Positions 1-41,686 of a DNA stretch of 42,783 bases are shown in pieces. Each line of letters begins with the position of its first letter. Positions within the stretch are counted from its first letter, which is position 1. Origin of the DNA: Flavobacteriales bacterium (GTDB lineage Bacteria > Bacteroidota > Bacteroidia > Flavobacteriales_D > Crocinitomicaceae). The notes under the pieces are model-generated. The model worked only from the letters and a program-made list of their open reading frames with translations, made no database searches and was not told where the DNA came from. The DNA lies in assembly GCA_947461635.1 (NCBI GenBank), contig CANHMH010000007.1, positions 1-42,783 of the forward strand, written 5' to 3'. The position numbers and the translations under genes were made by a program.

Positions 1-702
1 AAATACCAAGCAAGCGCTTGGGCAGAAGCAGGAAGAATGTTCGTCCCATATTACCGACAAGCACACATTCGTTCATACGAATTACTGGAGAAAGGTGGTC
101 GCGAAGCTTTACTTTTTGCTTATGAAGACATCAAAAATGCCTTTCAATATTACCTAGATCATTACAATCATGGACGTCCAATTATTCTTGCCGGACACAG
201 TCAAGGTAGTACACATTTGAGAATGATTCTTGAAGATTTTTTTGACAACAAAGAACTTCGAGGACAATTAGTTGCAGCATATATTCCTGGAATTGGGATA
301 TCCCATAATGAATTTAAAAGCATTCCCTTAATGAATTCCGCGCGTCAAACGGGTGGATTTGTTACATGGAATACCTTCAAGAAAAATGTAGACCAAGATT
401 CATACCGTCGCTGGTATAAAGGGAAAGCTGTTGTCAATCCAGTTACGTGGCAGACCTCAGGGACAGCAACAAAGGACCAACACCTCGGGTTTTTATATTC
501 CAATGATGATCTTTTTTGTCATTGTTTTGAAACCTCCGTAATGGACGGAGCTATTTGGATTTCACGTCCTTGCTCCTATCTTGGACTCGTTTCGTGGACC
601 ATGAAAAACCTTCATGTGGGCGATGTGAATTTGTTTTGGAAGGACATTCAAGAAAATGCAAAATTAAGAGCGCGAACTTATTTGCTCGAAAAAGGTTCAT
701 AA
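1..702 (+). CDS. DUF3089-family alpha/beta-hydrolase-like protein, 5'-truncated by window edge
   Basis: The reading frame is open from base 1 (KYQASAWAEAG precedes the first ATG at 37), so the N terminus lies outside the window. The visible part has a nucleophile elbow, GHSQGS, about 65 residues in, followed by a C-terminal part ending in VNLFWKDIQ, which I recognise as DUF3089. Members have a serine-hydrolase fold; no substrate is established that I can name. The ORF-track start at 37 is an internal Met. The gene ends at TAA and is followed by about 90 nt before gcvP, which has its own promoter, so the two are probably separate units. Family call fairly sure; function unknown. Confidence 0.8.
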   Translation, partial: KYQASAWAEAGRMFVPYYRQAHIRSYELLEKGGREALLFAYEDIKNAFQYYLDHYNHGRPIILAGHSQGSTHLRMILEDFFDNKELRGQLVAAYIPGIGISHNEFKSIPLMNSARQTGGFVTWNTFKKNVDQDSYRRWYKGKAVVNPVTWQTSGTATKDQHLGFLYSNDDLFCHCFETSVMDGAIWISRPCSYLGLVSWTMKNLHVGDVNLFWKDIQENAKLRARTYLLEKGS

Positions 703-739
703 GTCTAATTTTCGGTTCAAAACTTCCCCTTCCATTTCA

Positions 740-770
740 TTGACGATTCTTTTTTTGCTTTGTATATTTG
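740..770 (+). promoter_or_regulatory. Bacteroidota-type promoter of gcvP
   Basis: The -7 box TATATTTG (763-770) is a perfect TAnnTTTG match, with TTG at 740-742 and a 20-nt spacer, as expected for the Bacteroidota housekeeping sigma factor. The ORF-track TTG start of gcvP (768) lies inside the -7 box, so it cannot be in the transcript. This decides in favour of ATG 792, with a leader of roughly 15-20 nt. Confidence 0.75.
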
Positions 771-791
771 TGCACGCAAAAAAGAACATTC

Positions 792-3617
792 ATGACACCA
801 TTTTCTAGAAGACACATCGGACCGAGTGAAGCAGAGAAAAAAGCCATGTTGGCTACAATCGGCATCGACTCGATTTCAACATTGATTGACCGTACCATTC
901 CTGCCCAAATTCGTTTGGACGGCGAATTAAAAATCGCGGATGCGATGACGGAACAAGAATATTTACAGCATGTTTCAGAATTGGCGGCGAAAAACCAAGT
1001 GTTCAAGTCATTCATTGGTTTAGGTTACCATGAAACAATTGTTCCCAGTGTCATCTTGAGAAATGTTTTAGAAAATCCAGGATGGTATACGGCATATACG
1101 CCTTACCAAGCGGAGATTTCACAAGGACGTCTGGAAGCTTTATTGAATTTCCAAACCATGGTTTTGGATTTAACAGGAATGGAGATTGCTAATGCATCTT
1201 TATTGGATGAAGGAACAGCTGCTTCAGAAGCGATGATTATGTTCTACAACTCGCGTTCAAGAGCAGAAGTTCAAGCTGGAAAAAATAAATTTTTCGTCGC
1301 AGAAGATTCATTGCCTCAAAGCATTGATGTCATGCTCGGACGCGCCATTAATTTAGGCATTGAATTGGTAACAGGAAACATCGAATTATTTGAAGGTTCT
1401 GCAGAATATTTTGGTGCGTTTATCCAAAATCCAAGTGCACATGGGCACGTTCGTGACTTAACATCAAAAATTGCTCAATTGAAAGGACACGGAATTCAAG
1501 TTGCTGTAGCAGCAGATATTCTTTCAATGGTTGTCTTAAAATCACCAGGAAGCATGGGTGCTGATGTTGTTTTGGGTTCTTCCCAACGATTTGGCGTTCC
1601 AATGGGTTATGGTGGGCCTCACGCGGCGTTCTTTGCAGCTAAAGAAGAGTATAAACGAAATATTCCAGGAAGAATTATCGGTGTTTCAAAAGATGCTGAT
1701 GACAATTTCGCACTTCGCATGGCGCTTCAAACAAGAGAACAACACATCAAACGCGATAAAGCGACTTCTAATATTTGTACAGCACAAGCATTACTATCCG
1801 TAATGGCAAGTATGTACGCTGTTTACCACGGTCCAGACGGAATCCGGGAAATTGCAAATCATGTACATGAATTAGCAACGAAAACAGCAGCAGGATTAGC
1901 TGCAAAAGGAATCACATTAGGAACGGATTCTTACTTCGATACACTTTGGATAAAAGGTGTTGATTGTACAAGTGTTCGTGCAAAAGCGGAAGCGCAAAAA
2001 TTAAATTTCCGATATATCTCTGATTCAGAATTGAGCATCAGCTTTGGCGAGCCACATACAATGGATGATGTTCATGCTATTTTAGCATGTTTCGACGCTC
2101 AATCGTCAGAAGGTTCATCGAAACTTTCTTCCGATTTGAAAAGAACTGATAACGTACTAAGTCATCCGGTATTTAACAGCCATCATTCTGAATCTCAAAT
2201 GATGCGTTATTTGAAACGTTTGGAAAACAAAGACCTTTCGTTGGTTCATAGTATGATTCCTTTAGGTTCTTGCACCATGAAGTTGAATGCTGCTACTGAA
2301 TTAATGCCAATTACCAATCCGCAATTCGCGAATTTACACCCATTTGCTCCGGTTGAACAAGCCGCAGGATACCATGAGATGTTTAAACAATTGTCTTTAG
2401 ATTTATCTGAAAGTACTGGATTTGCCGGTGTTTCCCTTCAGCCAAACTCTGGTGCGCAAGGAGAATACGCAGGACTGATGGTCATCAAAGCATTCCATGA
2501 ATCAAATGGTGATACGCAACGTAAAAAAATGATTATCCCGTCATCTGCGCATGGAACCAATCCTGCTTCTGCGGTGATGGCTGGATTTGAAGTAGTTGTG
2601 ACTGGTTGCGATGAAAATGGAAACATTGACATCGAGGAGTTACGCCGCGTTGCGATTGACTTGAAAGATGTATTAGGTGGAATCATGGTGACGTATCCGT
2701 CTACACATGGTGTGTACGAAGAAGGAATTCGTGAAATTACTTCGATTATCCACGAAAACGGTGGACAAGTATACATGGATGGTGCGAATATGAATGCTCA
2801 AGTTGGATTAACAAATCCTGGGAATATCGGTGCGGACGTTTGTCACTTGAACTTACACAAGACATTCGCTATTCCACACGGTGGTGGTGGTCCAGGTATG
2901 GGGCCAATTGGCGTTGCTGCACACTTACTTCCATTCTTACCAGGAAGTCCAATCGTGAAAACAGGAGGAGAAAAAGCAATTCATGCAATTTCTGCAGCGC
3001 CATTTGGAAGTGCATTGATTCTATTAATTTCTTACGCTTACATCAAGATGTTAGGCGCAAAAGGACTTCGTGAATCTACGGAAATTGCGATTTTAAATGC
3101 GAATTACATCGCTGCAGGGTTGAAAGGTCACTACGACATTCTTTACACAGGGAAAAATGGTACTGTAGCTCACGAAATGATCTTAGACTGTCGCGATTTC
3201 AAACGCACAGCAGAAGTAGAAGTAGCCGACATGGCGAAACGCTTGATTGATTTCAACTTCCATGCACCTACGGTATCTTTCCCAGTTGCTGGAACCTTGA
3301 TGATTGAACCAACAGAATCTGAAGATAAAGAAGAATTAGATCGCTTTATCATTGCCATGATTAAAATCCGTGAGGAAATTCGTCAAATCGAAAACGGTGA
3401 AGCAGACAAAATAAATAACTTGCTCAAAAATGCGCCACATACAGCGGATTGCATCATCAACAAAGAATGGAATTACCCATACACACCTCAAGAAGCGGCT
3501 TATCCAGTTGCTTATTTGAAAGAGTGGAAATATTGGGTGCCTGTTCGACGTGTTGACAATGCATTTGGTGACCGAAATTTGGTTTGCTCTTGTCCAAGTA
3601 TTGAGAGTTACCAGTAA
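792..3617 (+). CDS. gcvP: Glycine dehydrogenase (decarboxylating), P-protein of the glycine cleavage system
   Basis: This PLP enzyme decarboxylates glycine and passes the aminomethyl group to lipoyl-GcvH; it is cytoplasmic. The protein is about 941 aa from ATG 792, the usual length of the single-chain fused form (N-terminal and C-terminal halves together). It starts MTPFSRRHIGPSE, a typical GcvP N terminus. The PLP-binding lysine is visible in NLHKTF (about Lys690), followed by the glycine-rich HGGGGPGMGP loop. The track start at TTG 768 is rejected because it overlaps the promoter. A strong intrinsic terminator follows, so the gene is monocistronic; gcvH and gcvT are not in the window. Confidence 0.97.
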   Translation: MTPFSRRHIGPSEAEKKAMLATIGIDSISTLIDRTIPAQIRLDGELKIADAMTEQEYLQHVSELAAKNQVFKSFIGLGYHETIVPSVILRNVLENPGWYTAYTPYQAEISQGRLEALLNFQTMVLDLTGMEIANASLLDEGTAASEAMIMFYNSRSRAEVQAGKNKFFVAEDSLPQSIDVMLGRAINLGIELVTGNIELFEGSAEYFGAFIQNPSAHGHVRDLTSKIAQLKGHGIQVAVAADILSMVVLKSPGSMGADVVLGSSQRFGVPMGYGGPHAAFFAAKEEYKRNIPGRIIGVSKDADDNFALRMALQTREQHIKRDKATSNICTAQALLSVMASMYAVYHGPDGIREIANHVHELATKTAAGLAAKGITLGTDSYFDTLWIKGVDCTSVRAKAEAQKLNFRYISDSELSISFGEPHTMDDVHAILACFDAQSSEGSSKLSSDLKRTDNVLSHPVFNSHHSESQMMRYLKRLENKDLSLVHSMIPLGSCTMKLNAATELMPITNPQFANLHPFAPVEQAAGYHEMFKQLSLDLSESTGFAGVSLQPNSGAQGEYAGLMVIKAFHESNGDTQRKKMIIPSSAHGTNPASAVMAGFEVVVTGCDENGNIDIEELRRVAIDLKDVLGGIMVTYPSTHGVYEEGIREITSIIHENGGQVYMDGANMNAQVGLTNPGNIGADVCHLNLHKTFAIPHGGGGPGMGPIGVAAHLLPFLPGSPIVKTGGEKAIHAISAAPFGSALILLISYAYIKMLGAKGLRESTEIAILNANYIAAGLKGHYDILYTGKNGTVAHEMILDCRDFKRTAEVEVADMAKRLIDFNFHAPTVSFPVAGTLMIEPTESEDKEELDRFIIAMIKIREEIRQIENGEADKINNLLKNAPHTADCIINKEWNYPYTPQEAAYPVAYLKEWKYWVPVRRVDNAFGDRNLVCSCPSIESYQ

Positions 3618-4409: not shown

Positions 4410-4412
4410 TTT

Positions 4413-4580
4413 TAATGTGCTAGTTGCTTAATGTGCTAGTTGCTCAGTCTGCTAATGTGCTAGTTACTTAATGTGCTAATGTGTTAGTGTGAGTAAGCTA
4501 TCGGAGCGTGTCATTAGCAAATAAGTCCATTGGCAAATTAGCACATTAATGCATTAGCAAATTAGCACATTAGTTCATTA
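4413..4580. repeat. Octamer word array A with inverted arms
   Basis: The left arm (4413-4492) reads as ten consecutive 8-nt words, including TAATGTGC, TAGTTGCT, CAGTCTGC, TAGTTACT and TAATGTGT, with no register slip. A 19-nt non-word core (4493-4511, containing CTATCGGAGCG) follows. The right arm (4512-4580) is the reverse complement: read on the minus strand it gives TAATGAAC, TAATGTGC, TAATTTGC, TAATGCAT, CAATGGAC and so on. The arms could pair into a long imperfect hairpin. The array fills the gap between the bshB1 stop codon and the -7 box of the next gene. Confidence 0.9.
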
Positions 4581-7283: not shown

Positions 7284-7289
7284 TTGGGT

Positions 7290-7511
7290 TAATGTGCTAA
7301 TGTGCTAATGGGTTAATGTGCTAATGGACCAATGTGTTAATTAACCAATGTGCTAATGTGCTAGTTACTTAATGTGCTATTGTGCCAATGGACTAATTTG
7401 CTAATGTGCTAATGGACTAATGTGCTAATGTGCTAGTTACTTAATGTGCTATTGTGCTAATGTGCTAATGTGCTAATGGACCAATGTGTTAATTAACCAA
7501 TGTGCTAATTT
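7290..7511 (+). repeat. Octamer word array B, single orientation, 27 words without an indel
   Basis: The 222 nt parse as 27 consecutive 8-nt words plus TAATTT. TAATGTGC alternates with TAATGGGT, TAATGGAC, CAATGTGT, TAATTAAC, TAGTTACT, TATTGTGC and TAATTTGC. Two multi-word phrases recur exactly: a 32-nt phrase at 7322-7353 and 7474-7505, and another at 7354-7385 and 7426-7457. No inverted arm is visible. The 7284-7556 gap otherwise holds only about 45 nt before the HMA gene. Confidence 0.92.
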
Positions 7512-7556
7512 GGAGGGGAGATAGTGAGAAATGAATACTTTTTAAATTTATATAGG

Positions 7557-7889
7557 ATGAAAACAATAACCTTAAGTCTATTCTTTGTGCTATTTAGCAC
7601 TATTAGTTTTGGGCAAAAATCAATGACGAGTCAGATTCAGACGAATGCGCAATGTGGTGATTGTAAGGAACGAATCGAAGGGAAATTAAACTATACAAAA
7701 GGAATCAAATTTGCAGAACTCGATGACCAGACGAAAATTGTTACTGTTAAATACGACCCGAGTAAAATTGAACTTCTGACGATCAAGCAAACAATAGCGA
7801 AAATTGGTTATGATGCCGACGACGTAAAAGCGGATAAAGAAGACGTGGAGAAATTACCGAAGTGTTGTCAGCCGAATGGACATGAATAA
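7557..7889 (+). CDS. Exported heavy-metal-associated (HMA) domain protein
   Basis: 110 aa from ATG 7557: a signal peptide ending ISFGQ, then one ferredoxin-like HMA domain with the metal motif QCGDC (Cys33, Cys36), and a C-terminal KCCQPNGH that could add ligands. Such proteins bind Cu(I) or similar ions; the signal peptide places this one in the periplasm. The ORF-track GTG at 7524 adds eleven residues in front of an ideal signal peptide and is less likely. It probably works with the upstream TonB receptor and HYC_CC_PP protein. Its stop codon TAA is the first three bases of array C. Confidence 0.85.
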   Translation: MKTITLSLFFVLFSTISFGQKSMTSQIQTNAQCGDCKERIEGKLNYTKGIKFAELDDQTKIVTVKYDPSKIELLTIKQTIAKIGYDADDVKADKEDVEKLPKCCQPNGHE

Positions 7890-8078
7890 TGTGCTAATGT
7901 GCTAATTAACCAATGTGCTAATTACCTAATGTGCTAATTACCTAATGTGCTAGTTGTTCAATGTGCTAGTTGTCTAATTTGCCAGATAGTCAATGTGCTG
8001 ATTGTTTTATTACGTAGCTGAAGGCCATTAGCAAATTAGTCCATTGTCACATTAATCCATTAGCTCATTACTACATTA
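7887..8078. repeat. Octamer word array C with inverted arms
   Basis: The left arm (7887-8014) reads as sixteen 8-nt words (TAATGTGC, TAATTAAC, CAATGTGC, TAATTACC, TAGTTGTT, CAGATAGT and others). A 10-nt core TAGCTGAAGG (8015-8024) follows. The right arm (8025-8078) on the minus strand reads TAATGTAG, TAATGAGC, TAATGGAT, TAATGTGA, CAATGGAC and TAATTTGC. The first word supplies the TAA stop of the HMA gene. The last word ends 4 nt before the purF -7 box. Confidence 0.9.
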
Positions 8079-8110: not shown

Positions 8111-10012
8111 ATGAGTGATCCGATAAAACATGAGTGTGGAATAGCTCTTTTAAGGCTAAAAAAACCTTTGGAATATTATTTGGAAAAGTACGGGACAGCT
8201 CTGTACGGCATTAATAAAATGCACCTACTCATGGAAAAACAACACAATCGTGGACAAGATGGTGCTGGAATCGCGAACATTAAGTTCGATATGGAACCAG
8301 GTCAGCGGTACATTTCAAGAACTCGGTCAATTAAAAAGAATCCAACACAAGATATTTTTGATCAAATAAATGGGAAATTCCAACAAATTCAACAAGAAAA
8401 CCCTGATCATTTAAAAGATGTTAATTACCTAAAACAAAATGCAGGTTTCACCGGAGAATTGTTTTTAGGACACCTTCGTTATGGAACTTTTGGAAGGAAT
8501 TCAATTGAAAGTTGCCATCCATTTTTACGTCAAAACAACTGGATTACTCGCAACTTAGTTGTGGCTGGAAACTTCAATTTAACAAACGTCGACGAGTTGT
8601 TTCAAAACTTGGTCAACTTAGGTCAACATCCGAAAGAAAAAAGTGACACAGTAACGGTTTTAGAAAAAATAGGACATTTCCTTGATGTAGAGAATGAAGA
8701 CTTATATGCTCATTACAAATCACTTGGCTATTCTAAAGATCAAATATATGCTCGCATCGCGAAAGAAGTTAATTTGGTTAAGATCTTGAAAAAAGCATCC
8801 GAAGTTTGGGATGGTGGATATGCCATGGCAGGGCTACTTGGTCATGGTGACGCATTTGTCTTACGAGATCCAAATGGCATTCGTCCGGCATTTTGGTATG
8901 AAGATGATGAAATTTGTGTTGTTGCATCTGAACGACCAGTGATTCAAACTGCCTTCAACTTAACCAGTGATCAAATCCATGAACTTCAACCGGGACACGC
9001 ATTAATCGTGCGCAAAAACGGTGAAGTAAAAGAAGAGATGATTAACGCTCCTAGAGAGATTAAAAAATGTTCTTTTGAACGCATCTATTTCTCCCGCGGA
9101 TCAGATACTGACATTTACAAAGAACGAAAAGCTTTAGGAAGACTAATCGTTGATCAAGTACTAAGGACGGTTAATCACGATTTCGACAATAGTGTATTTT
9201 CATTCATTCCAAATACAGCGGAAGTTTCCTTTTACGGATTGATCAAAGGATTGGAAGAGAATTTGAATCAACAAAAAATCAAGCAAATTCAATCGCTTGG
9301 AAAAGATGCGAGTACAGAACAGCTAGCAGAAATCATCAACCGACGTGCACGTATCGAAAAGATTGCAATTAAGGATGCCAAGTTGCGTACCTTCATCACA
9401 CAAGATGACTCACGTGACGATCTTGTTGCGCATGTATATGACATCACTTATGGAAGTGTGCGTCCAGGAACAGATAACCTCATCGTAATTGATGACAGTA
9501 TCGTACGTGGAACAACTTTAAAACAAAGTATCTTACGAATTCTTGATCGTTTGTCACCGAAGAAAATCGTTGTTGTTTCGTCTGCACCGCAGATTCGTTA
9601 CCCGGATTGTTACGGAATCGACATGGCGAAAATGGGTGATTTCATCGCATTCGAAGCCGCTATTCAATTGTTACGTGACCGAAAAATGGAACGTGTAATA
9701 AAAGAAGTATACGAAAAATGCCTTGAACAAGTAAACCTTCCGAAGGAACAGGTTCGAAATTTCGTTAAAGAAATCTATGCGCCATTTAGCGACGAAGAAA
9801 TCTCAGCTAAAATCGCTGAATTATTGACTCCTCCTACAATTAAAGCAGAGGTGGAAATCGTATTTCAAACAGTAGAAAACTTACATATCGCTTGTCCAAA
9901 TCACCTTGGAGATTGGTACTTCACAGGAGATTATCCGACACCTGGTGGAAACAAAGTAGTGAATAAAGCATTTATCAATTGGGTGGAGAAAAGGAATGAG
10001 CGGGCATATTAA
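8111..10012 (+). CDS. purF: Amidophosphoribosyltransferase, long Bacteroidota form
   Basis: 633 aa, longer than the roughly 470-500 aa of classical PurF. The N-terminal Ntn-hydrolase glutaminase domain has its probable nucleophile at Cys9 in HECGIALL, so an eight-residue propeptide would have to be removed. The NRGQDGAG and HLRYGT motifs of the glutaminase follow. The PRPP-binding loop VIDDSIVRGTT lies near residues 457-470. A C-terminal extension of about 100 residues follows, ending in the GDWYFTGDYPTPGG region found in Bacteroidota homologues. The enzyme makes 5-phosphoribosylamine, the first committed step of purine synthesis. It has its own promoter; its stop TAA is part of array D. Confidence 0.9.
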   Translation: MSDPIKHECGIALLRLKKPLEYYLEKYGTALYGINKMHLLMEKQHNRGQDGAGIANIKFDMEPGQRYISRTRSIKKNPTQDIFDQINGKFQQIQQENPDHLKDVNYLKQNAGFTGELFLGHLRYGTFGRNSIESCHPFLRQNNWITRNLVVAGNFNLTNVDELFQNLVNLGQHPKEKSDTVTVLEKIGHFLDVENEDLYAHYKSLGYSKDQIYARIAKEVNLVKILKKASEVWDGGYAMAGLLGHGDAFVLRDPNGIRPAFWYEDDEICVVASERPVIQTAFNLTSDQIHELQPGHALIVRKNGEVKEEMINAPREIKKCSFERIYFSRGSDTDIYKERKALGRLIVDQVLRTVNHDFDNSVFSFIPNTAEVSFYGLIKGLEENLNQQKIKQIQSLGKDASTEQLAEIINRRARIEKIAIKDAKLRTFITQDDSRDDLVAHVYDITYGSVRPGTDNLIVIDDSIVRGTTLKQSILRILDRLSPKKIVVVSSAPQIRYPDCYGIDMAKMGDFIAFEAAIQLLRDRKMERVIKEVYEKCLEQVNLPKEQVRNFVKEIYAPFSDEEISAKIAELLTPPTIKAEVEIVFQTVENLHIACPNHLGDWYFTGDYPTPGGNKVVNKAFINWVEKRNERAY

Positions 10013-10090
10013 TGTGCTAATGATCTAATGTGCTAATGATTTAAAGTGCTAATGTGCTAATGATTCAATGTGCTGATGATTTAATGTGCT

Positions 10091-10104
10091 TCCGCTGCGG
10101 CGGA
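10091..10104 (+). other. Small GC-rich hairpin next to the left arm of element D
   Basis: TCCGC-TGCG-GCGGA, a perfect 5-bp stem directly after the last left-arm word, in otherwise AT-rich DNA. It is followed by GTTTTGATTTG rather than a clean T-run, so a terminator role is uncertain. Confidence 0.45.
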
Positions 10105-10173
10105 GTTTTGATTTGTTTTTATGATTTTGGGAGCTTGGGAGAATAAAATTCAACTTCTTGCGTTAAATGATTC

Positions 10174-10524
10174 ATGACTGATTCTAAGAACCCATTACTC
10201 ACTAAATCATTTGACTTTGCGCTACTAATTGTGTCGTTTTGTCAAGAGTTACAATCACAAAGAAGTTACGTTATTGCGCATCAACTGTTGAAATCAGGTA
10301 CTTCTGTTGGAGCAAATATTCGAGAAGCTCAGCATGCAGAGTCTAGAGCGGATTTCATTCACAAATTGAAAATTGCCTCAAAAGAATGCGAAGAAACAAC
10401 CTATTGGCTCGAAATCTGTCAAGCAAGTTATCCCATGAATTGTGATGTACTCATTAACGAATCGCTACAAATCGGCAAACTACTCAGTCGCATCATCTCC
10501 ACTGCAAAACGAAATAGATTCTAA
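10174..10524 (+). CDS. Four-helix-bundle protein, S23/IVP (Avd-like) family
   Basis: 116 aa, predominantly helical with four predicted amphipathic helices. The hallmark of the family is visible in LLKSGTSVGANIREAQHAES followed by FIHKLKIASKECEETTYWLEI. Relatives are encoded in intervening sequences of some 23S rRNA genes, and Avd of diversity-generating retroelements has the same fold; they are basic oligomeric proteins thought to bind nucleic acid. No reverse transcriptase or 23S fragment is seen here. The gene is enclosed by octamer arms with zero distance between its stop codon and the right arm. A promoter was not identified. Family call is firm; function unknown. Confidence 0.88.
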   Translation: MTDSKNPLLTKSFDFALLIVSFCQELQSQRSYVIAHQLLKSGTSVGANIREAQHAESRADFIHKLKIASKECEETTYWLEICQASYPMNCDVLINESLQIGKLLSRIISTAKRNRF

Positions 10525-10597
10525 ACTAATTAGCATATTACTCCATTAGCACCTTAGCACATTACTCCATAATCCCTACTTTTACAAAAAATTAAAT

Positions 10598-11800
10598 TTG
10601 TCACTGATCTACTCCTTTTTTATTCAATGCTATGGCTTGTTGATTCATGTAGCTTCACGGTTCAATCCGAAAGCGAAGGCCTGGATAGAAGGACGTCAGC
10701 TATGGCAAGAGAAACTTCGGAAACAAATCCCAAAGGAACGTAAGGTGTTGTGGTTTCATTGTGCTTCACTGGGCGAGTTCGACCAAGGATTGCCTCTGAT
10801 GAAGTCTATGAAGGAAGCTGAACCTAGTTTGTTCTTGTTAGTCAGTTTCTTTTCTCCATCGGGAATGGAACATTACGAGAAACGCGAAAAAATCGTTGAT
10901 GCTGCTTGCTACCTTCCGCTTGACACACTCCAGAATGCACGGACGTTTGTCAAAATAGTCCAACCACAAAAAGCGGTTTTCGTGAAATATGAATTCTGGC
11001 CAAATTTCCTTCGAGCCTTGGATGAAAAACACATCGAAACGGATGCTGTATCAGCAATTTTTCGTCCTTCGCAACTATACTTTCGTTGGTATGGAGGCTT
11101 TTTCCGAAGAGCATTAAAGCGCATTCATCATTTTTACGTGCAAAACGAAGAAAGTGCGGCACTTTTGAAATCTATTGGAATTCAGCAAATTACTATCTCA
11201 GGTGATATGCGCTACAAACGCGTTGTTCAAGCGAAGGAAATAGCGATGCAAACCTCAAATGAACTTCTAGCCTCATTTACCTCAGGTTCTACTACCCTGA
11301 TCCTCGGAAGTTCTTGGCCAAAAGAAGAAGGAATTGTACGCGATGCTCTTTTACATTTAGGAGAAATAAAGTTAATCATTGCACCGCACGATGTGAGTGA
11401 ACAGCATGTTGCATCCATTCAAGCAATGTTTCCTTCTGCATTACGCTATACAAAGTTAGAAATCGATCGTAAGGAAAAGCAACTTTTGAATGCTCAAATT
11501 CTGATCATCGATTGCATTGGACAATTAAGCGCTGCATACCGTTATGGAACAATTGCCTTTATCGGTGGAGGATTTACGGGTAGTCTGCATAATATTCTAG
11601 AACCAGCCGTTTACGGACTTCCACTCCTGTTTGGTCCAAAACACAGTAAATTCCCAGAATCAGATTTATTTCTTCAAAAAGGCTTCGCACTCGAGGTTAA
11701 CAATCATACAGATTTCACCGAAGGGTTCAACTTTCTACTTTCTAAAGTTAATTCACTGCGTACAGAAATGGAATCGTTTGTTGAGAGTCAAATTGGTTAA
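10598..11800 (+). CDS. waaA: 3-deoxy-D-manno-octulosonic acid (Kdo) transferase
   Basis: A 400-aa GT30 glycosyltransferase that adds Kdo to lipid A precursors at the inner membrane, consistent with a Gram-negative host. Visible landmarks are an N-terminal hydrophobic anchor (YSFFIQCYGLLIHVA), HCASLGEFDQG, KYEFWPNF, and the C-terminal GGGFTGSLHNILEPAVYG and FGPKHSKFPE. No ATG is available at the N terminus. TTG 10598 gives the expected family start, but it overlaps a TAAATTTG sequence. TACTTTTA (10577-10584, 7/8 match) is the better -7 candidate and leaves the TTG in the transcript. The stop TAA is the first three bases of array E. Confidence 0.9.
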   Translation: MSLIYSFFIQCYGLLIHVASRFNPKAKAWIEGRQLWQEKLRKQIPKERKVLWFHCASLGEFDQGLPLMKSMKEAEPSLFLLVSFFSPSGMEHYEKREKIVDAACYLPLDTLQNARTFVKIVQPQKAVFVKYEFWPNFLRALDEKHIETDAVSAIFRPSQLYFRWYGGFFRRALKRIHHFYVQNEESAALLKSIGIQQITISGDMRYKRVVQAKEIAMQTSNELLASFTSGSTTLILGSSWPKEEGIVRDALLHLGEIKLIIAPHDVSEQHVASIQAMFPSALRYTKLEIDRKEKQLLNAQILIIDCIGQLSAAYRYGTIAFIGGGFTGSLHNILEPAVYGLPLLFGPKHSKFPESDLFLQKGFALEVNNHTDFTEGFNFLLSKVNSLRTEMESFVESQIG

Positions 11801-12013
11801 TGTGCTAATGGACTAATGTGCTAATGTGTTAGTTAGTTAGTTAGTTAATTTGCTAATGTGCTAGTTGCTTAATTTGCTAATGGACTAATTTGCTTGTTGA
11901 TTGATGTTCTAGATACTTTCAGGCGCAGTGGAAATCCAATGGCACATTAGCACATCGAATCATTAGCACATTGAATCATTAGCACATTGAATCATTAGCA
12001 CATTAGCACATTA
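11798..12013. repeat. Octamer word array E with inverted arms between convergent genes
   Basis: The left arm (11798-11917) reads as fifteen 8-nt words (TAATGTGC, TAATGGAC, TAGTTAGT twice, TAATTTGC and others). The core is 11918-11935 (contains AGGCGCAGTG). The right arm (11936-12013) on the minus strand is TAATGTGC twice, then TAATGATT-CAATGTGC alternating, one copy as CGATGTGC. The outermost words supply the TAA stop of waaA on the left and the TAA stop of the beta-barrel gene on the right. As a long inverted repeat between convergent genes it may act as a bidirectional terminator. Confidence 0.9.
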
Positions 12014-12778: not shown

Positions 12779-15271
12779 TTATTTCTTTTTCAGAAAGATG
12801 CGTAAAAATGGGAAATAACGTTGTATGCGATTTCTCCATTTTCGTTTGTTTTTTGAAGGTTTATCAAAATACTCGTTTCCATTGGAACCATAACCATAGC
12901 CGTAGCCATAACCGTAACCGTAACCGTAGCCATAACCATAGCCAGATCCATAACCGTAGCCGTATCCATAACCTTTACCGGTAAGGTCAGTTGCGTTCAC
13001 CAAAATGGCCATGTTCGGCATTTTCTTTTCATGGTAAAGGCTAGCAGGAATGCTCAACATTCGACGATCTAAGTGCTCTGCTCTTGCCACATATACAACG
13101 ATATCAGAATACTTGTGTATATGCAAAGAATCCGCTACCAAGGCAACAGGAGCTGTATCTAGAATCACATAATCATACCTAGATTTGGCGATTTCGATTA
13201 ATTCTGCTAAACGTGGTCTTAATAGTAATTCTGATGGATTCGGAGGAATGTCCCCTGAAATGATATAATCTAAGTTCGGATTTCCTTGATCATGGATAAC
13301 CACATCATCAAAAGTTAAGTCTTCTTTTACAATGTAATTCGTTACCCCAATGGTTTTAACAACATCGACATATCGTGCAATTTTTGGAGCGCGTAAATCC
13401 AATCCAATCAACAGGACTTTTTTATCGCTATGTGAAAGTGTATGTCCAATATTGATGGAAATAAATGTTTTACCTTCACCCGCAATGGAAGAAGTGACCA
13501 TGATAACCTTAGATCCCTTTTTATCATTATCCAATAAAAAAGTCAAATTTGTTCGAATCATCCGAAATGCTTCGGCAATGTGCGTTCTTGCATTCTTTGT
13601 AGCAACAATTGTTCTATCTGAATCATCTCCTTTTGGAATTTCTCCGATAGCAGGAATCTTAAATTTAATTAAGTCGTGAAGTCCATGGACTTTACTATCC
13701 AACAAATACCTCAAATAGATGATTCCAAACGGAACTAATAAACCAATTACCGTAGCAAAAATGTAATATTTTTTGCGGTTTGGTTCAGTTGGTAATCCGT
13801 TACTACTTGCCTCATAAATTATCTTGGTATTTCCAATCGAGGAAGCTGTTTTAATTTCGTTTTCTTCCCGTTTCTGTAGAAGGAAAATATACAGTGTTTC
13901 TTTGATTTTTTGCTGACGTTCTATGTCTCTAAATTCTCTTTCATAACCAGGAACTGAAGCAATTTTATCCTTATAGCGTTGATCTACTACGTTTAATGAA
14001 TTTAAGGTAATTTTTAACCTTGACTTATTTGATTTCAATCCTTCCTCAATAGAATGTCGCAAGCCAATTAATTGATCATCAATCTTTTGAACTATTGGAT
14101 TCTTAGTGCTTGAATTCTTCATTAAACGTTGACGATCCAACAAAAGCTTGTTACACTGTGTGGTCATTGCCACGATGGAACCATCCTCAAAACCTAGATT
14201 TGAAGGCAATAATTCAGTATAATCTTGGTGTTTCTGCAGGTATTCTTGCAGATAATCATTCAAGCTCAATTGTACAGATGTCTGAATAATTTTTTCTTCA
14301 GTCGCACTTTCTTTCGCGACAAATTCACCGCCTTGGGTGGTCACATCAACGATATTATGTTTCGTTTTGAAAGCCTCAACATCCTTCTCTACCTCTGACA
14401 ACTCTTCAGAAATGTAGGACATTCTATCATTGATAAACGCACTTGTCTTGCGCGTCATTTCATTTTTATCATAGATGCTTTGAGTTTGATGCTCCGTAAT
14501 TAGCGCAGTGATGATTTCGTTGTTTTTGTCGATTACTGGTCCGTTATAAGAAATGGAGATCAAATCCGAAAATTTATCAACACGTTCAAGCGTTATATCC
14601 GACGCCAATTTTAATGCTACATCTTTAATTGGTTCAAGAAATACGATGTATTGATTTCCAACAGTAGAGCCAATAAAATTTGCGTTTTTCACAAAGGAAA
14701 TTTGACCAATTTTAGTCGAAACAGGCGTGTTAAAGGAATGTGAGCCTAAATAAGTGTTCTCATCGATGTGAAGTTCAAATCGAGTGGGAGAAATTACTTT
14801 TAATTGAAAACTAGCACTTTTATCGTAAAGCAAACTATCATTTCGAACAGATTCTAGCGTAAAAGGTGTGTTTTTGTATAACTCAGATTTTTTAATTCCA
14901 GCATTTTGGCCCACCATTAAATACCTGCAGTTTAGTTTTAGGTTTCTAGCAACACTATTCAGTATCGTAGGTGTTTTAAATAACGCTATTTCATTCTCTA
15001 ACTTCGTGCTTTTTTCTGTTAAACCAAGGTCTTGAAAAGCAGAAAGCCCTTTTAAAACATCGTCTTCTTGATTTTGAATTAATATCGTTGCCTGTGAGTT
15101 ATATATGGGTGTAGAATAACGCAAAAAGGTATACGCAACAAAACAAGAAACAAACACGCCAACAGCGAACCACAACCAAAAATGAAGGTAACGATCAATG
15201 AGTTCACGTATGTTTATCGTTGGTTCAGGTGCATCTACTTGAGACTGCTGTACGTTGAAATCCTCTTGCAT
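12779..15271 (-). CDS. Wzc-like polysaccharide co-polymerase and tyrosine autokinase with Gly-Tyr tail
   Basis: 830 aa. A Wzz-type N-terminal TM (about 34-52) precedes a periplasmic coiled-coil/GNVR region, a second TM (about residues 500-520) and a cytoplasmic BY-kinase domain. The kinase has Walker A SSIAGEGKT (near residue 598), an A' motif LLIGLDLR and Walker B YVILDTAP (near 702). The tail is a Gly-Tyr tract with 13 tyrosines, then a basic C terminus. Such proteins control chain length and export together with Wza through cycles of Tyr phosphorylation. Start and upstream stop overlap as TAATG, so translation is coupled to the Wza-like gene. Confidence 0.92.
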   Translation of the reverse strand: MQEDFNVQQSQVDAPEPTINIRELIDRYLHFWLWFAVGVFVSCFVAYTFLRYSTPIYNSQATILIQNQEDDVLKGLSAFQDLGLTEKSTKLENEIALFKTPTILNSVARNLKLNCRYLMVGQNAGIKKSELYKNTPFTLESVRNDSLLYDKSASFQLKVISPTRFELHIDENTYLGSHSFNTPVSTKIGQISFVKNANFIGSTVGNQYIVFLEPIKDVALKLASDITLERVDKFSDLISISYNGPVIDKNNEIITALITEHQTQSIYDKNEMTRKTSAFINDRMSYISEELSEVEKDVEAFKTKHNIVDVTTQGGEFVAKESATEEKIIQTSVQLSLNDYLQEYLQKHQDYTELLPSNLGFEDGSIVAMTTQCNKLLLDRQRLMKNSSTKNPIVQKIDDQLIGLRHSIEEGLKSNKSRLKITLNSLNVVDQRYKDKIASVPGYEREFRDIERQQKIKETLYIFLLQKREENEIKTASSIGNTKIIYEASSNGLPTEPNRKKYYIFATVIGLLVPFGIIYLRYLLDSKVHGLHDLIKFKIPAIGEIPKGDDSDRTIVATKNARTHIAEAFRMIRTNLTFLLDNDKKGSKVIMVTSSIAGEGKTFISINIGHTLSHSDKKVLLIGLDLRAPKIARYVDVVKTIGVTNYIVKEDLTFDDVVIHDQGNPNLDYIISGDIPPNPSELLLRPRLAELIEIAKSRYDYVILDTAPVALVADSLHIHKYSDIVVYVARAEHLDRRMLSIPASLYHEKKMPNMAILVNATDLTGKGYGYGYGYGSGYGYGYGYGYGYGYGYGYGSNGNEYFDKPSKNKRKWRNRIQRYFPFLRIFLKKK
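12884..12979 (-). repeat. Gly-Tyr codon tract in the Wzc-like kinase tail
   Basis: A 6-nt coding repeat (GGN-TAY) giving four GY, one GS, nine GY and a final GS. It is the probable autophosphorylation cluster. Synonymous codons vary between units, but the tract is still a candidate for length change by slippage in 6-nt steps, which would keep the frame. Confidence 0.85.
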
Positions 15272-16065: not shown

Positions 16066-16152
16066 GATCGTAATTGAACTTGTAAAGTTAAGAAATACTT
16101 GGTGAATGAACTAATCGATATAATTGTCAAGTTGGCTCATTCAAATAAGCAA

Positions 16153-23071: not shown

Positions 23072-23205
23072 TAATGGGCTAATTGTTAATGTGCTAATGG
23101 TTTAATTTGCCAATTTGCTAATTGTTAATGTGCTAATGGTTTAATTTGCTAATGTGCTAATTAGTTACTGCGCTAATGATGCTATTTGATAATTTGCTAA
23201 TGGAT
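23072..23205. repeat. Octamer word array F, single orientation, upstream of the carbamoyltransferase
   Basis: The plus strand reads TAATGGGC, TAATTGT (7 nt), TAATGTGC, TAATGGTT, TAATTTGC, CAATTTGC, TAATTGT (7 nt), TAATGTGC, TAATGGTT, TAATTTGC and so on, 17 words with two 7-nt slips at the same word. A 31-nt phrase is repeated exactly (23080-23110 and 23119-23149). No inverted arm. It starts 2 nt from the carbamoyltransferase ATG and ends 44 nt from the preceding stop codon, the only array lying inside the minus-strand locus. Confidence 0.9.
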
Positions 23206-38935: not shown

Positions 38936-40216
38936 TTACTTCCAATTTACCTTGTTGAAAATTAGGTGTCCATTTGGACGGTCATTCCAATTGGAACTTG
39001 TCAAAATACTTGTGATTTCAAATAAAGGGACATCTATTAAAAAATCATACGATAAGGATACACTATCTTGGGTAATGGCAATTTGACCGAAATAATTTCC
39101 GGAACTCAAATTATTATTTTCAATTGTGAATTGTATACTATTATTACCAGGGAAAATCGATTTCTGGAAATTTTGATCATTACTATTTAAAGTTGAAATA
39201 ATTTCACCATTGGAATTAAAAATTATTATCAATACCTCAATACTTGATCTCGTAATTTGAGAAAACAACTCTAATCCAATAGTCACATCGTCACCACTTT
39301 GTAATTTAATTATTTCTGAGGAATTTCCATTAATCGACAATTGTCTAATTTCAATATTAAAATCGACATTTTTTCTTCGATATAATTTTAATTCATCCCT
39401 TTTTCGATCATGCCTAATTGCGTTTAATTGATAACGTTTTATCGCATCTACAGTAGATAATAAGTTATGATGATTTTTTCCTGATTCTAGAATCAATGAC
39501 TTATTCGTTAATTGAAGAATACTGCCCATATTATGACTCACAAACAGCACGGTTCTTCCTTCTCCTTTACTCACTTCACCCATTTTGCCCAAGCACTTCT
39601 TTTGGAACTCGGCATCACCGACGGCTAATACTTCATCCACGATGAGGATTTCGCTTTCTAAATGTGCCGCCACCGCAAAAGCCAAACGAACATACATTCC
39701 AGATGAATAGCGTTTAACGGGGGTGTCAATGTAGCGCTCTACACCAGAAAAGTCAATGATTTCGTCGAGTTTTCGGTCAATTTCACGCTTACGCATGCCT
39801 AAAATGGCTCCGTTTAGGTAAATATTTTCGCGGCCTGTAAGTTCTGGATGGAATCCAGTTCCAACCTCTAATAAACTGGCTACTCGGCCTTTGATGTTTA
39901 TCCTACCTGTTGTTGGCGTTGTAACACGGGATAAGATTTTAAGTAAAGTGCTTTTTCCTGCACCATTTCGTCCTATGATTCCTACCGCGTCACCTTGATT
40001 GATCTCAAAATTAATATCACGTAAGCTATAAACGATATCGCTTTCTCCACGGTTAGCGCGATCATTCGTTTCACCAATTTTAAGGAATGGATCTTCTTGT
40101 TTTAATATCTTAGTCTTGAACCAACGTTCCATATCACGGGAAATAGTTCCTGTGCCAATCTCTCCGAGACGGTAGATTTTAGAGAGATTTTCAACTTTGA
40201 TCGCAGTTTGAGACAT
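38936..40216 (-). CDS. Wzt-like ABC transporter ATP-binding protein with C-terminal glycan-binding domain
   Basis: 426 aa. Walker A GRNGAGKST (82-90), signature YSSGM (about 166-170) and Walker B ILIVDEVLAVGD belong to the polysaccharide-exporter ATPases. The C-terminal beta-sandwich (about 285-426) matches the position of the Wzt carbohydrate-binding domain, which recognises the non-reducing end of the chain; its sequence is variable, as expected for serotype-specific parts. The heptamer array starts 8 nt before its ATG. Its usual neighbour, the permease, is separated by the S23-containing insertion. Confidence 0.92.
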   Translation of the reverse strand: MSQTAIKVENLSKIYRLGEIGTGTISRDMERWFKTKILKQEDPFLKIGETNDRANRGESDIVYSLRDINFEINQGDAVGIIGRNGAGKSTLLKILSRVTTPTTGRINIKGRVASLLEVGTGFHPELTGRENIYLNGAILGMRKREIDRKLDEIIDFSGVERYIDTPVKRYSSGMYVRLAFAVAAHLESEILIVDEVLAVGDAEFQKKCLGKMGEVSKGEGRTVLFVSHNMGSILQLTNKSLILESGKNHHNLLSTVDAIKRYQLNAIRHDRKRDELKLYRRKNVDFNIEIRQLSINGNSSEIIKLQSGDDVTIGLELFSQITRSSIEVLIIIFNSNGEIISTLNSNDQNFQKSIFPGNNSIQFTIENNNLSSGNYFGQIAITQDSVSLSYDFLIDVPLFEITSILTSSNWNDRPNGHLIFNKVNWK

Positions 40217-40223
40217 ATATTTT

Positions 40224-40258
40224 GTTATTCGTTTTTCGTCGTTCGATTTTCGTGTGCG
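40224..40258. repeat. Heptamer word array, short part next to the Wzt-like gene
   Basis: On the plus strand five consecutive 7-nt words: GTTATTC, GTTTTTC, GTCGTTC, GATTTTC, GTGTGCG. Same alphabet and register as the larger array at 40726-40857 on the other side of the S23-like gene. Confidence 0.75.
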
Positions 40259-40310
40259 CTTTTTTCTTTTGTCGAGAGGCGAAGTAAGATCAGTTATAGA
40301 CGTTTTATAG

Positions 40311-40655
40311 TTACTTTATAGACGAAATCAATTTATTTAACATCATCGTAATTCGATCAGATTTTGTAGAAATCATGTCATACTTTTCCAATGAAATATA
40401 TCCTAATTCTTTTGATAAAAACAAATGATATTTGGTCTCTGCATTTGAAGCTTTTGCGATGTAAAGAAATTGTCTAAATTCCTTATTGTATTGTCTCGCC
40501 TGCCCTTCAATTATATTCGTTGGAACGCTACTAGAACTTCTTTTCATTTGTGAAGTCAAATTGTATTGTTCTTTTTTTGGTAAGTCGTCAGCAACTCTAT
40601 AAACTTCCATTGTCATTTCATGAGCTAACTTCCATACTTGCAACTTGTTTTCCAT
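40311..40655 (-). CDS. Four-helix-bundle protein, S23/IVP (Avd-like) family
   Basis: 114 aa, helical. The family core is clear: YNLTSQMKRSSSSVPTNIIE, then RQYNKEFRQFLYIAKASNAE. It belongs to the larger S23 subgroup (LTSQ.RRS..S.P.NI.EG) and is clearly diverged from the copy at 10174. It lies between two heptamer arrays and between the Wzm-like and Wzt-like genes, in the direction of the operon. Function unknown; nucleic-acid binding is suggested by relatives in rRNA intervening sequences and retroelements. Confidence 0.9.
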   Translation of the reverse strand: MENKLQVWKLAHEMTMEVYRVADDLPKKEQYNLTSQMKRSSSSVPTNIIEGQARQYNKEFRQFLYIAKASNAETKYHLFLSKELGYISLEKYDMISTKSDRITMMLNKLISSIK

Positions 40656-40725
40656 AATGATTGATTTGAGGTTAAAGGATTATGTTGATCTATATCCTTA
40701 ACGCTGTCATGGAGGAAAATATTTC

Positions 40726-40857
40726 GTTGTTCGCTATTAGTTGTTCGTTGTTTGCTTTTCGTTGTTCGTTGTTCGCAGACAGTTTTTTGTTACACTTCGT
40801 GGCCTAGTCGATGGACGATTTACGAACTTCGAGAAACGAACGATGCAAAGCGACATG
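40726..40857. repeat. Heptamer word array with inverted arm, upstream of the second S23-like gene
   Basis: The forward arm (40726-40788) reads in 7-nt register GTTGTTC, GCTATTA, GTTGTTC, GTTGTTT, GCTTTTC, GTTGTTC, GTTGTTC, GCAGACA, GTTTTTT. After about 20 nt the inverted arm (40809-40843) reads CGATGGA, CGATTTA, CGAACTT, CGAGAAA, CGAACGA, the reverse-complement type of the same TTCG words, with one further CGACATG at 40851-40857. The layout copies the octamer arrays with another alphabet and word length. Confidence 0.8.
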
Positions 40858-40861
40858 CTTC

Positions 40862-41686
40862 TTAAACCGTATCTACGAACGTTTTCTCTGTTTTGTTAAA
40901 TATTACCACACCAATGATAACGGAAACGATGGTGACAATCACTGAATAACCAAGTGTATTCATCGTTAATTCCCCCTCCCCTAAGAACCCAAAACGAAAG
41001 GCCTCAATGATTCCAGTCATTGGATTTAATTCGATGATCCATTTATAGTCAGCAGGAGCTGCACTTAAAGGATAAATTACTGTTGTAGCATACATCATGA
41101 GTTGAACTCCAAAGGTGATTAAAAAAGCCAAATCGCGGTACTTTGTGGTCAATGCTGTAATAATGAGTCCTAGTCCCAGTCCCAGAAGGGCCATTAACAA
41201 GACCAACACAGGAAAGAGCAATACATAAAGATTCATATGGAAGTTCGCTCTGATAAAAGCGTAATAGCCTACCATCAGGAAGAACAAAATCATTTGTACC
41301 GAAAAACGAACAAGGTTACTCACAACAATACTCAAAGGCATAATCAAACGTGGGAAATAGACCTTTCCAAAAATATTAGCATTGTCTTTAAACACGGTCG
41401 ATGTTTTGGTTAAACAATCAGCAAAGTAGTTCCAAGCGGTGATTCCAGCCATATAAAACAAGGGTTGTGGAAGTCCGTCTGTGCTGAGTCCTGCTAGGTT
41501 ACCAAAGATGAATGTGAAGATAATCGTTGTGAACAATGGTTGAATAAAAAACCAAAGTGGACCTAAAATGGTTTGTTTGTAAAAAGAAACAAAATCACGC
41601 TTGACTAATAACCACAACAAATCTCGGTAGCGCCAAACATCTTTCAGATGTAGTTCAAAAAGGGAATTTTGAGGCTCAATTACCAA
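40862..41686 (-). CDS. Wzm-like ABC-2 permease for polysaccharide export, TTG start
   Basis: 274 aa with six predicted TM helices. It has the family N-terminal signature VWRYRDLLWLLVKRDFVSFYKQT followed by LGPLWFFIQP. It forms the membrane pore for the Wzt-like ATPase. The reading frame is open far upstream, and the residues just before the TTG (SKEWDLVIEP) fit the family, yet no in-frame ATG or GTG exists before the upstream gene. The start is therefore either this TTG or an unusual codon further up. The 122-nt gap to the upstream gene holds no other feature I can see. Confidence 0.9.
   Translation of the reverse strand: MVIEPQNSLFELHLKDVWRYRDLLWLLVKRDFVSFYKQTILGPLWFFIQPLFTTIIFTFIFGNLAGLSTDGLPQPLFYMAGITAWNYFADCLTKTSTVFKDNANIFGKVYFPRLIMPLSIVVSNLVRFSVQMILFFLMVGYYAFIRANFHMNLYVLLFPVLVLLMALLGLGLGLIITALTTKYRDLAFLITFGVQLMMYATTVIYPLSAAPADYKWIIELNPMTGIIEAFRFGFLGEGELTMNTLGYSVIVTIVSVIIGVVIFNKTEKTFVDTV

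Follow-up and report, generated by a model that had tools for sequence, protein, structure and literature searches.

Two S23 genes and their short-word arrays

The window, the whole stretch of 42,783 nt analysed here, is contig C7 of G000, a Bacteroidota genome of 2.38 Mb in 217 contigs (83% complete), and it holds two of the three S23 (PF05635) genes of that genome. S23 no. 2 (40311-40655, minus strand) is located in the gap that separates a Wzt-like polysaccharide ABC transporter ATPase gene (38936-40216, minus strand; PF00005 and Wzt_C) from a Wzm-like ABC-2 permease gene (40862-41686, minus strand; PF01061), the 3' end of which borders the S23 element. It encodes a 23S rRNA IVS protein (four helix bundle) of 114 aa, here called type A, with the motif SVPTNIIEG (PF05635, E = 1.8e-37; TIGR02436), and its profile score of 128.2 bits against a curated cut-off of 33.8 places it in the PF05635 family. 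With the Wzm- and Wzt-like genes on its two sides, S23 no. 2 does not lie in a 23S rRNA gene; of its relatives, only that at locus L396 does.

Both sides of S23 no. 2 carry 7-nt words. The left array (40221-40252, plus strand) consists of TTTGTTA, TTCGTTT, TTCGTCG, TTCGATT and TTCG and has a lag-7 score of 11, weaker than that of the right array (40723-40775, plus strand; TTCGTTG..., TTCGTTGTTCGCTATTAGTTGTTCG...), to which TRF assigns period 7 and whose score of 22 exceeds that of all shuffles. Lag-7 matches reach 71% in the best 48-nt window of these arrays, compared with a mean of 54% and a maximum of 60% in 60 Markov shuffles. Chance or low complexity as the source of the arrays was excluded by the lag controls and shuffles. 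The same words appear on the minus strand at 40817-40853 (CGAACTT, CGAGAAA, CGAACGA), where 40830-40853 pairs with the left arm at 40229-40252 around the S23 gene (24 nt, 79%) and 40827-40851 pairs with the right array at 40754-40778 (25 nt, 76%). The sequence-only reading of this locus, an S23-like gene amid 7-nt words with an inverted arm, was borne out by the PF05635 match, the lag-7 scores above shuffles and the pairing of the arm. The layout it gave needs correction in one respect. The two TTCG arrays run in the same direction, and the inverted arm, which pairs with both but whose words are too few for an array by themselves, is located beyond the right array; the copy is therefore less tidy than that of S23 no. 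1.

S23 no. 1 (10174-10524, plus strand; type B, motif KQLLKSGTSVGANIREA; 116 aa; PF05635, E = 4.4e-22, 78.7 bits; nearest solved structure 2rld) lies downstream of a purF-like gene (8111-10012). Upstream of S23 no. 1 is an arm of 8-nt words (TAATGTGC and TAATGATC; 10010-10090, plus strand, called by TRF), the first TAA of which terminates the purF-like reading frame. The same words return in inverted orientation in the downstream arm (10524-10564, minus strand), which forms a clean inverted pair with 10042-10082 (41 nt, 76%). Two S23 genes with two word lengths and one architecture, as had been claimed, are indeed present, with 8-nt words in an inverted pair at S23 no. 1 and 7-nt words with an inverted arm at S23 no. 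2. No word arrays occur in the gaps around the third S23 gene of G000 (G000:C4:16381-16692, L003), which neighbours a glutamine synthetase-like gene. Genes of this third type (also L057 and L059) occupy one conserved site in the clade, with a glutamine synthetase-like neighbour and no word arrays, and possibly represent a domesticated S23.

G000 and its congeners were searched genome-wide with patterns and in sampled stretches. The 8-nt word is far commoner in G000 than the 7-nt word, with 97 matches against 2 for a control pattern, and TAATGTGC arrays that contain no S23 gene occupy five or more further gaps of the window, some being hairpins (forward arm, loop, reverse arm) and others bare arrays. 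Hairpins, which have no assigned strand, lie at 4412-4580 (also in G015, G002 and G036), at 7887-8078 (starting at a stop codon) and at 11798-12013 (starting at the waaA stop codon). Bare arrays lie on the plus strand at 7290-7509, within a 240-nt gap (7284-7523) whose ortholog in G002 is 12 nt long and empty, and at 23072-23202, where G036 has an array too. For the 7-nt alphabet of S23 no. 2, orphan arrays were found in G000 on contig C69 (score 30, cosine 0.76) and, with related CGAAAAA words, on contig C128 (score 33).

Three further features of the repeats were seen. Many TAATGTGC arrays contain, in register, a GC-rich palindrome, CTTCCGCCGCGGCGGAG, at loops and between words (window 10089-10105; L399 at 2023, 2156, 5513, 7956 and 10571). 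On contig C69 a TTCGTTG array, cognate to S23 no. 2, and a TAATGTGC array, cognate to S23 no. 1, are adjacent in one gap (L405, 1055-1170), as if one element had landed beside the other. The period-6/18 repeat at 12886-12973 of the window is in frame, encodes the GYGYG-rich tail of a tyrosine-kinase-like protein and is an ordinary coding repeat.

Generality of the arrays and pairing of genes with words

S23 loci were collected from 60 relatives and 80 named genomes, and an array was counted if it had period 7 or 8, a score of at least 12 and a distance of at most 200 nt from the gene. The architecture is general: 67% of the 182 S23 genes with both flanks had such an array, compared with 18.6% of 242 control genes from the same loci, and arrays of other periods occurred at about 1% of S23 genes. 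The lag spectrum of the S23 flanks peaks only at 7, 14 and 21 and at 8 and 16, and the upstream and downstream arrays agreed in period at 49 (7/7) and 16 (8/8) genes and were discordant at 7. We used shared 9- to 11-mers to detect inverted arms because 7-mers, which were dropped, have too high a background; 10-mers common to both flanks were inverted at 55% of loci, direct at 22% and permuted at 6%. Named genera with array-flanked S23 genes include Flavobacterium, Pontibacter, Mucilaginibacter, Hymenobacter and Vreelandella; several records from other phyla are MAGs and call for caution, as contigs can be misbinned. The 33% of S23 genes at which no array was detectable include the glnA-side copies.

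To our knowledge S23, with a structure solved since 2006, is still without a function, and the origin of rRNA intervening sequences is open. The relation between gene and word was followed in G054, a single 4.1-Mb contig with eight S23 genes, from which 20 evenly spaced stretches (394 kb) avoiding the S23 loci were sampled. The 45 period-7/8 arrays in this sample had a mean best match of 0.50 to the genome's own eight S23 words, against a mean of 0.12 (maximum 0.19 in 1000 draws) for random sets of eight foreign S23 and 0.17 (maximum 0.28) for the own words scrambled within the unit. For 40 of the 45 arrays an own S23 was a better match than every one of the 113 foreign S23, and the sole period-8 array matched the sole period-8 S23 of the genome. 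The eight genes have eight different words (P = 1.7e-4 for random draws from the genome's array families), and at all eight the upstream arm best matches the reverse complement of the gene's own downstream arm. Across 21 genomes the own inverted arm was the best match in 60 of 86 cases, with 21 expected.

Orphan arrays elsewhere behave similarly, if unevenly. All four arrays matched own S23 words in G015, and two of the four found in 397 kb of G038 were closest to an own S23; array load among S23-bearing genomes ranges from 12.4 per 100 kb in G054 to 1.0 in G038. No intergenic period-7/8 array with a score of at least 18 was found in 400 kb of an S23-free congener, G017. Taken within a genome, S23 gene and word are almost certainly paired, as judged from these matches. 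Three intact S23 genes and a broken one lie within 5 kb at locus L107 (G042:C4), and each intact gene has a different word.

These comparisons bear on the possibility that ordinary slippage repeats or landing pads, unconnected with S23, account for the arrays, S23 merely inserting or surviving nearby. We consider this quite improbable. Such repeats are already difficult to reconcile with the one-to-one words of G054, with the inverted arms around the S23 gene, with period-8 orphans that occur only with a period-8 S23 and with the array-free state of G017, although arrays do outnumber S23 genes and occur without them, and the papers that describe heptamer repeats of Xanthomonas, Nostoc and Beggiatoaceae (GGGNATC, PMC4692102; TAACTGA, PMC4679880) make no mention of S23.

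The sequence-only reading had gone further and suggested that each S23 lineage is matched to its own word type. That claim stands inside a genome, where pairing is one to one, but fails in its strong form, since across genomes an alphabet is common to close S23 relatives only. For S23 pairs with non-homologous neighbours, the 5-mer cosine of the words fell from 0.71 where the proteins are at least 80% identical to 0.29 (65-80%), 0.11 (55-65%) and about 0.05 (lower identity). Close S23 relatives with unrelated flanks, an observation that the reading had set against itself, do occur (L207 versus L164 and L166, 72-73% identical), and there is therefore no deep lineage-to-word code. Word length (7 or 8) changed 15 times on the S23 tree compared with 26 times in shuffles, but after removal of homologous sites the counts were 9 versus 11.7 (p = 0.035) and 10 versus 12.5 (p = 0.055). 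The correlation of S23 tree and array words is thus present among close relatives and absent at depth, and word length tracks the tree only weakly. By these comparisons S23 and its words move together strongly above about 65-80% protein identity, and below about 65% the words drift. Two candidate rules were rejected: a deep lineage-to-alphabet code, as the correlation ends near 65% identity, and lineage-locked word length, as its signal is weak once homologous sites are removed. Single-linkage clustering of the words chained into one cluster and was discarded.

Sites, turnover and pairing of the arms

Doublets of TAATGTGC were found in five of the 41 congeners searched (G000, G002, G015, G032 and G036) and, apart from one match in G003, in none of the other 36. 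The cognate S23 is present in four of the five; the fifth, G032, is 66% complete. CACTGAG words occur only in G002, G015 and G032, with the cognate S23 found in G002 and G015 (L049, L051), and a third word, GAGTGTT, was seen at the G007 S23 and, as a single weak match, in G031. The five TAATGTGC species form one clade, so that these occurrences represent few independent events and come close to a single evolutionary one.

At the purF site, G000, G015 and G036 have array, S23 and array; G002 and G032 have an array with no S23 detected, and outgroups have neither. In G002 the TAATGTGC S23/word unit adjoins the Wzm gene instead. The window gap at 16066-16152 has no array, as is the case in G036, and G002 holds a 265-nt word hairpin there. 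Judging from such orthologous gaps, arrays are gained or lost between congeners. No target-site duplication was recognisable at filled versus empty gaps, the flanks being too diverged. A separate observation concerns waaA (window 8111-12013), which is co-directional with purF in G000, G015 and G036 and convergent in G002 and the outgroups; its bracketing by oppositely oriented TAATGTGC arrays suggests an array-mediated inversion.

For 100 S23 loci whose upstream gene is co-directional, the start of the array was placed relative to the stop codon of that gene: 59 fall between -10 and +5 nt and 77 between -10 and +15 nt. That stop codon is TAG at 32 of the 59 loci but at 122 of 502 control genes (Fisher p = 4e-6), an excess that fits words supplying the stop codon themselves. 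The GGGNATC repeats of Xanthomonas and Nostoc are likewise placed at stop codons (Rehm et al., PMC4692102). We think it probable that S23 gene and word arrays form one genetic element, composed of a word arm, S23 and an inverted word arm directly behind the upstream stop codon.

An inverted pair in an operon transcript might instead serve the host. The arms would then form a stem in operon mRNA, as in the rRNA IVS, which RNase III cuts or which stabilises or terminates the transcript, with S23 binding and tuning it and any spread being incidental. The arms do pair as RNA: their mean duplex energy is -31.4 kcal/mol, compared with -29.1 when the words are shuffled (Wilcoxon p = 9e-5) and -16.2 for non-inverted pairing. 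The gain over what word content alone gives is modest (22 of 89 reach p <= 0.05). S23 sites recur in operons (fad, cas, nrd) and the protein is under purifying selection (see below); excision of the IVS by RNase III is known in Coxiella (PMC4990558). The sites are nevertheless sporadic: among 30 order-mates, nine have S23 with arms in the fadB-fadA gap and a few have word hairpins lacking S23, the gap being otherwise short or of unrelated sequence. Word alphabets also vary freely at the same site, and arrays come and go between congeners. A host RNA-processing or regulatory element appears unlikely, though it deserves to be taken seriously. Gaps of the fatty-acid oxidation operon (fadB-fadA and fadA-fadE; L153-L232, L263-L292) are recurrent S23 sites across Bacteroidota, each with a different word.

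A tie to rRNA comes from Azospirillum, in which an S23 gene (L396) lies inside the 23S rRNA gene (Rfam LSU match 283-3318) and bears arms of 7-mer words (GAGGACG, GATGACA, GAGGACG, GAGGACA / CTGTCTT, CTGTCAT, CCGTCTT). This locus links the intergenic elements to the classical IVS; it speaks for the host-element explanation too.

The S23 protein, its possible partners and known repeat families

The AlphaFold model of S23 no. 2 has four helices (pLDDT 96.5); a run on the lone sequence gave pLDDT 50 and was discarded. With this model, Foldseek returned 2gsc as the best match (TM 0.92, rmsd 0.9), then 2RLD and then Avd of diversity-generating retroelements (DGRs), to which, in the DGR ribonucleoprotein (8ub7, 4dwl), the TM was about 0.8. 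2GSC is reported, as cited from Lin et al. 2006 in PMC4990558, to be a homopentamer. The S23 protein is under strong purifying selection, as estimated from dN/dS values of 0.04-0.12 in nine of ten computable pairs (the exception, L041/L047, has 9 differences); S23 no. 1 gave 0.10-0.12 against the G015 and G002 copies.

The likeness to Avd raises the possibility of a retroelement in which S23 and a reverse transcriptase write word arrays from RNA, as Avd functions in DGRs. S23 shares the pentameric four-helix fold of Avd/bAvd, but S23 no. 2 matches the Avd families weakly, below their cut-offs (NF033474, 29.2 bits versus 80; bAvd, 29.7 versus 40). No RVT_1 match was found in the array-rich G015 (99% complete), G002, G036 or G000, whereas the S23-free G017 has one. 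This absence sets the elements apart from DGRs and makes a retroelement extremely improbable; a reverse-transcriptase partner was rejected as unsupported.

A single-strand transposase of the Y1 (HUH) type might alternatively move the hairpins as in REP/RAYT systems, with S23 as an accessory. Diverged Y1_Tnp (PF01797) matches occur once each in G002, G015, G036 and G038 and weakly in G054, with none in S23-free G017, and the population of autonomous and non-autonomous copies is like that of REP/RAYT. Against this, no match was found in G000 (83% complete) despite its 8-mer arrays, a single weak Y1 gene could not explain the eight private words of G054, and no Y1 gene adjoins the S23 loci examined; the gene of the S23 no. 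2 element has PF05635 and bAvd as its Pfam matches and no Y1 transposase. We regard such an agent as very unlikely.

We favour, as the more probable reading of the sequence comparisons, minimal mobile elements consisting of arm-S23-arm units and S23-less derivatives. The word that the S23 homopentamer would recognise is its own, read most probably in single-stranded form, either in the hairpin of the transcribed RNA or in the corresponding DNA hairpin of the lagging strand. S23 and host enzymes would then promote the copying of word arrays into new intergenic sites; as S23 has no known catalytic domain, a host partner enzyme must be assumed. In this scheme the arm-S23-arm form would be autonomous; arm-loop-arm hairpins and bare arrays, which lack S23, would depend on it and, we propose, be tolerated because they occupy gaps that are not translated. 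An element of this kind, once landed in rRNA, would be what is known as the 23S rRNA intervening sequence.

Heptamer repeats of bacteria have been puzzled over since 1990 and catalogued for decades without an agent. Self-spreading S23 elements may explain them, and the one-to-one pairing of S23 and word joins this puzzle to those of S23 function and rRNA IVS origin and makes all three testable. A genome with eight S23 genes and eight words offers, ready-made, an 8 by 8 matrix in which to gauge the specificity of a small protein proposed to read short words; if recognition is real, S23 would be a naturally diversified set of nucleic-acid readers. We found no open-access paper that links S23 genes to short-word arrays, and calling the system undescribed is provisional.

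Several known systems share parts of this picture. The 23S rRNA IVS of Leptospira and Coxiella likewise carries an S23 ORF flanked by inverted arms that pair into a stem, but the elements here are intergenic, in mRNA operons, their arms are arrays of private short words and they have S23-less copies scattered genome-wide. REP/BIME sequences with RAYT, and REPINs, likewise combine a single-copy gene flanked by inverted repeats with many gene-less inverted repeats dispersed in intergenic gaps. S23, in contrast to the RAYT transposase, is an unrelated four-helix bundle without a catalytic site, and its repeats are 7/8-nt tandem words in several private families per genome rather than REP palindromes. 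The cyanobacterial STRR heptamers and the TAACTGA (PMC4679880) and GGGNATC (PMC4692102) repeats are, like S23 words, intergenic tandem heptamers, sometimes inverted, whose coding-strand copies stand at stop codons and whose opposite-strand copies precede the next gene. We advance tentatively, as something quite possible that falls somewhat short of probable, that S23 proteins are sequence-specific readers of private 7-/8-nt words that drive one widespread class of mobile elements lacking a transposase or reverse transcriptase of their own, and that 23S rRNA intervening sequences and the STRR, TAACTGA and GGGNATC heptamers all stem from this class.

Cyanobacterial plasmids carry S23 genes with heptamer arms: GTAGGGA/TCCCTAC and GGGAACA/TGTTCCC in Nostoc, GGGTGTA/TACACCC in Calothrix and GGTGACA/TGTCACC in Anabaena. 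In 250 kb of the Nostoc edaphicum plasmid pNe_5, three S23 genes each have a private word, of 7, 8 and 7 nt. Close matches to these words (0.80-0.94) were found among several orphan arrays, and the three period-8 arrays outside the flanks all match the period-8 S23 best; several other period-7 arrays match none of the three. Plasmid S23 genes are often inside operons (cas6-S23-cas4, Cas10/Cmr2-S23-Cmr3, nrd genes), those at L384, L385 and L391 being amid CRISPR genes (cas6/cas4; Cas10-Cmr2/Cmr3). The Pseudanabaena S23 (L385, around 1390-1960) has long AAAGCTA/AAAGCCA arrays on its two sides, in direct rather than inverted orientation.
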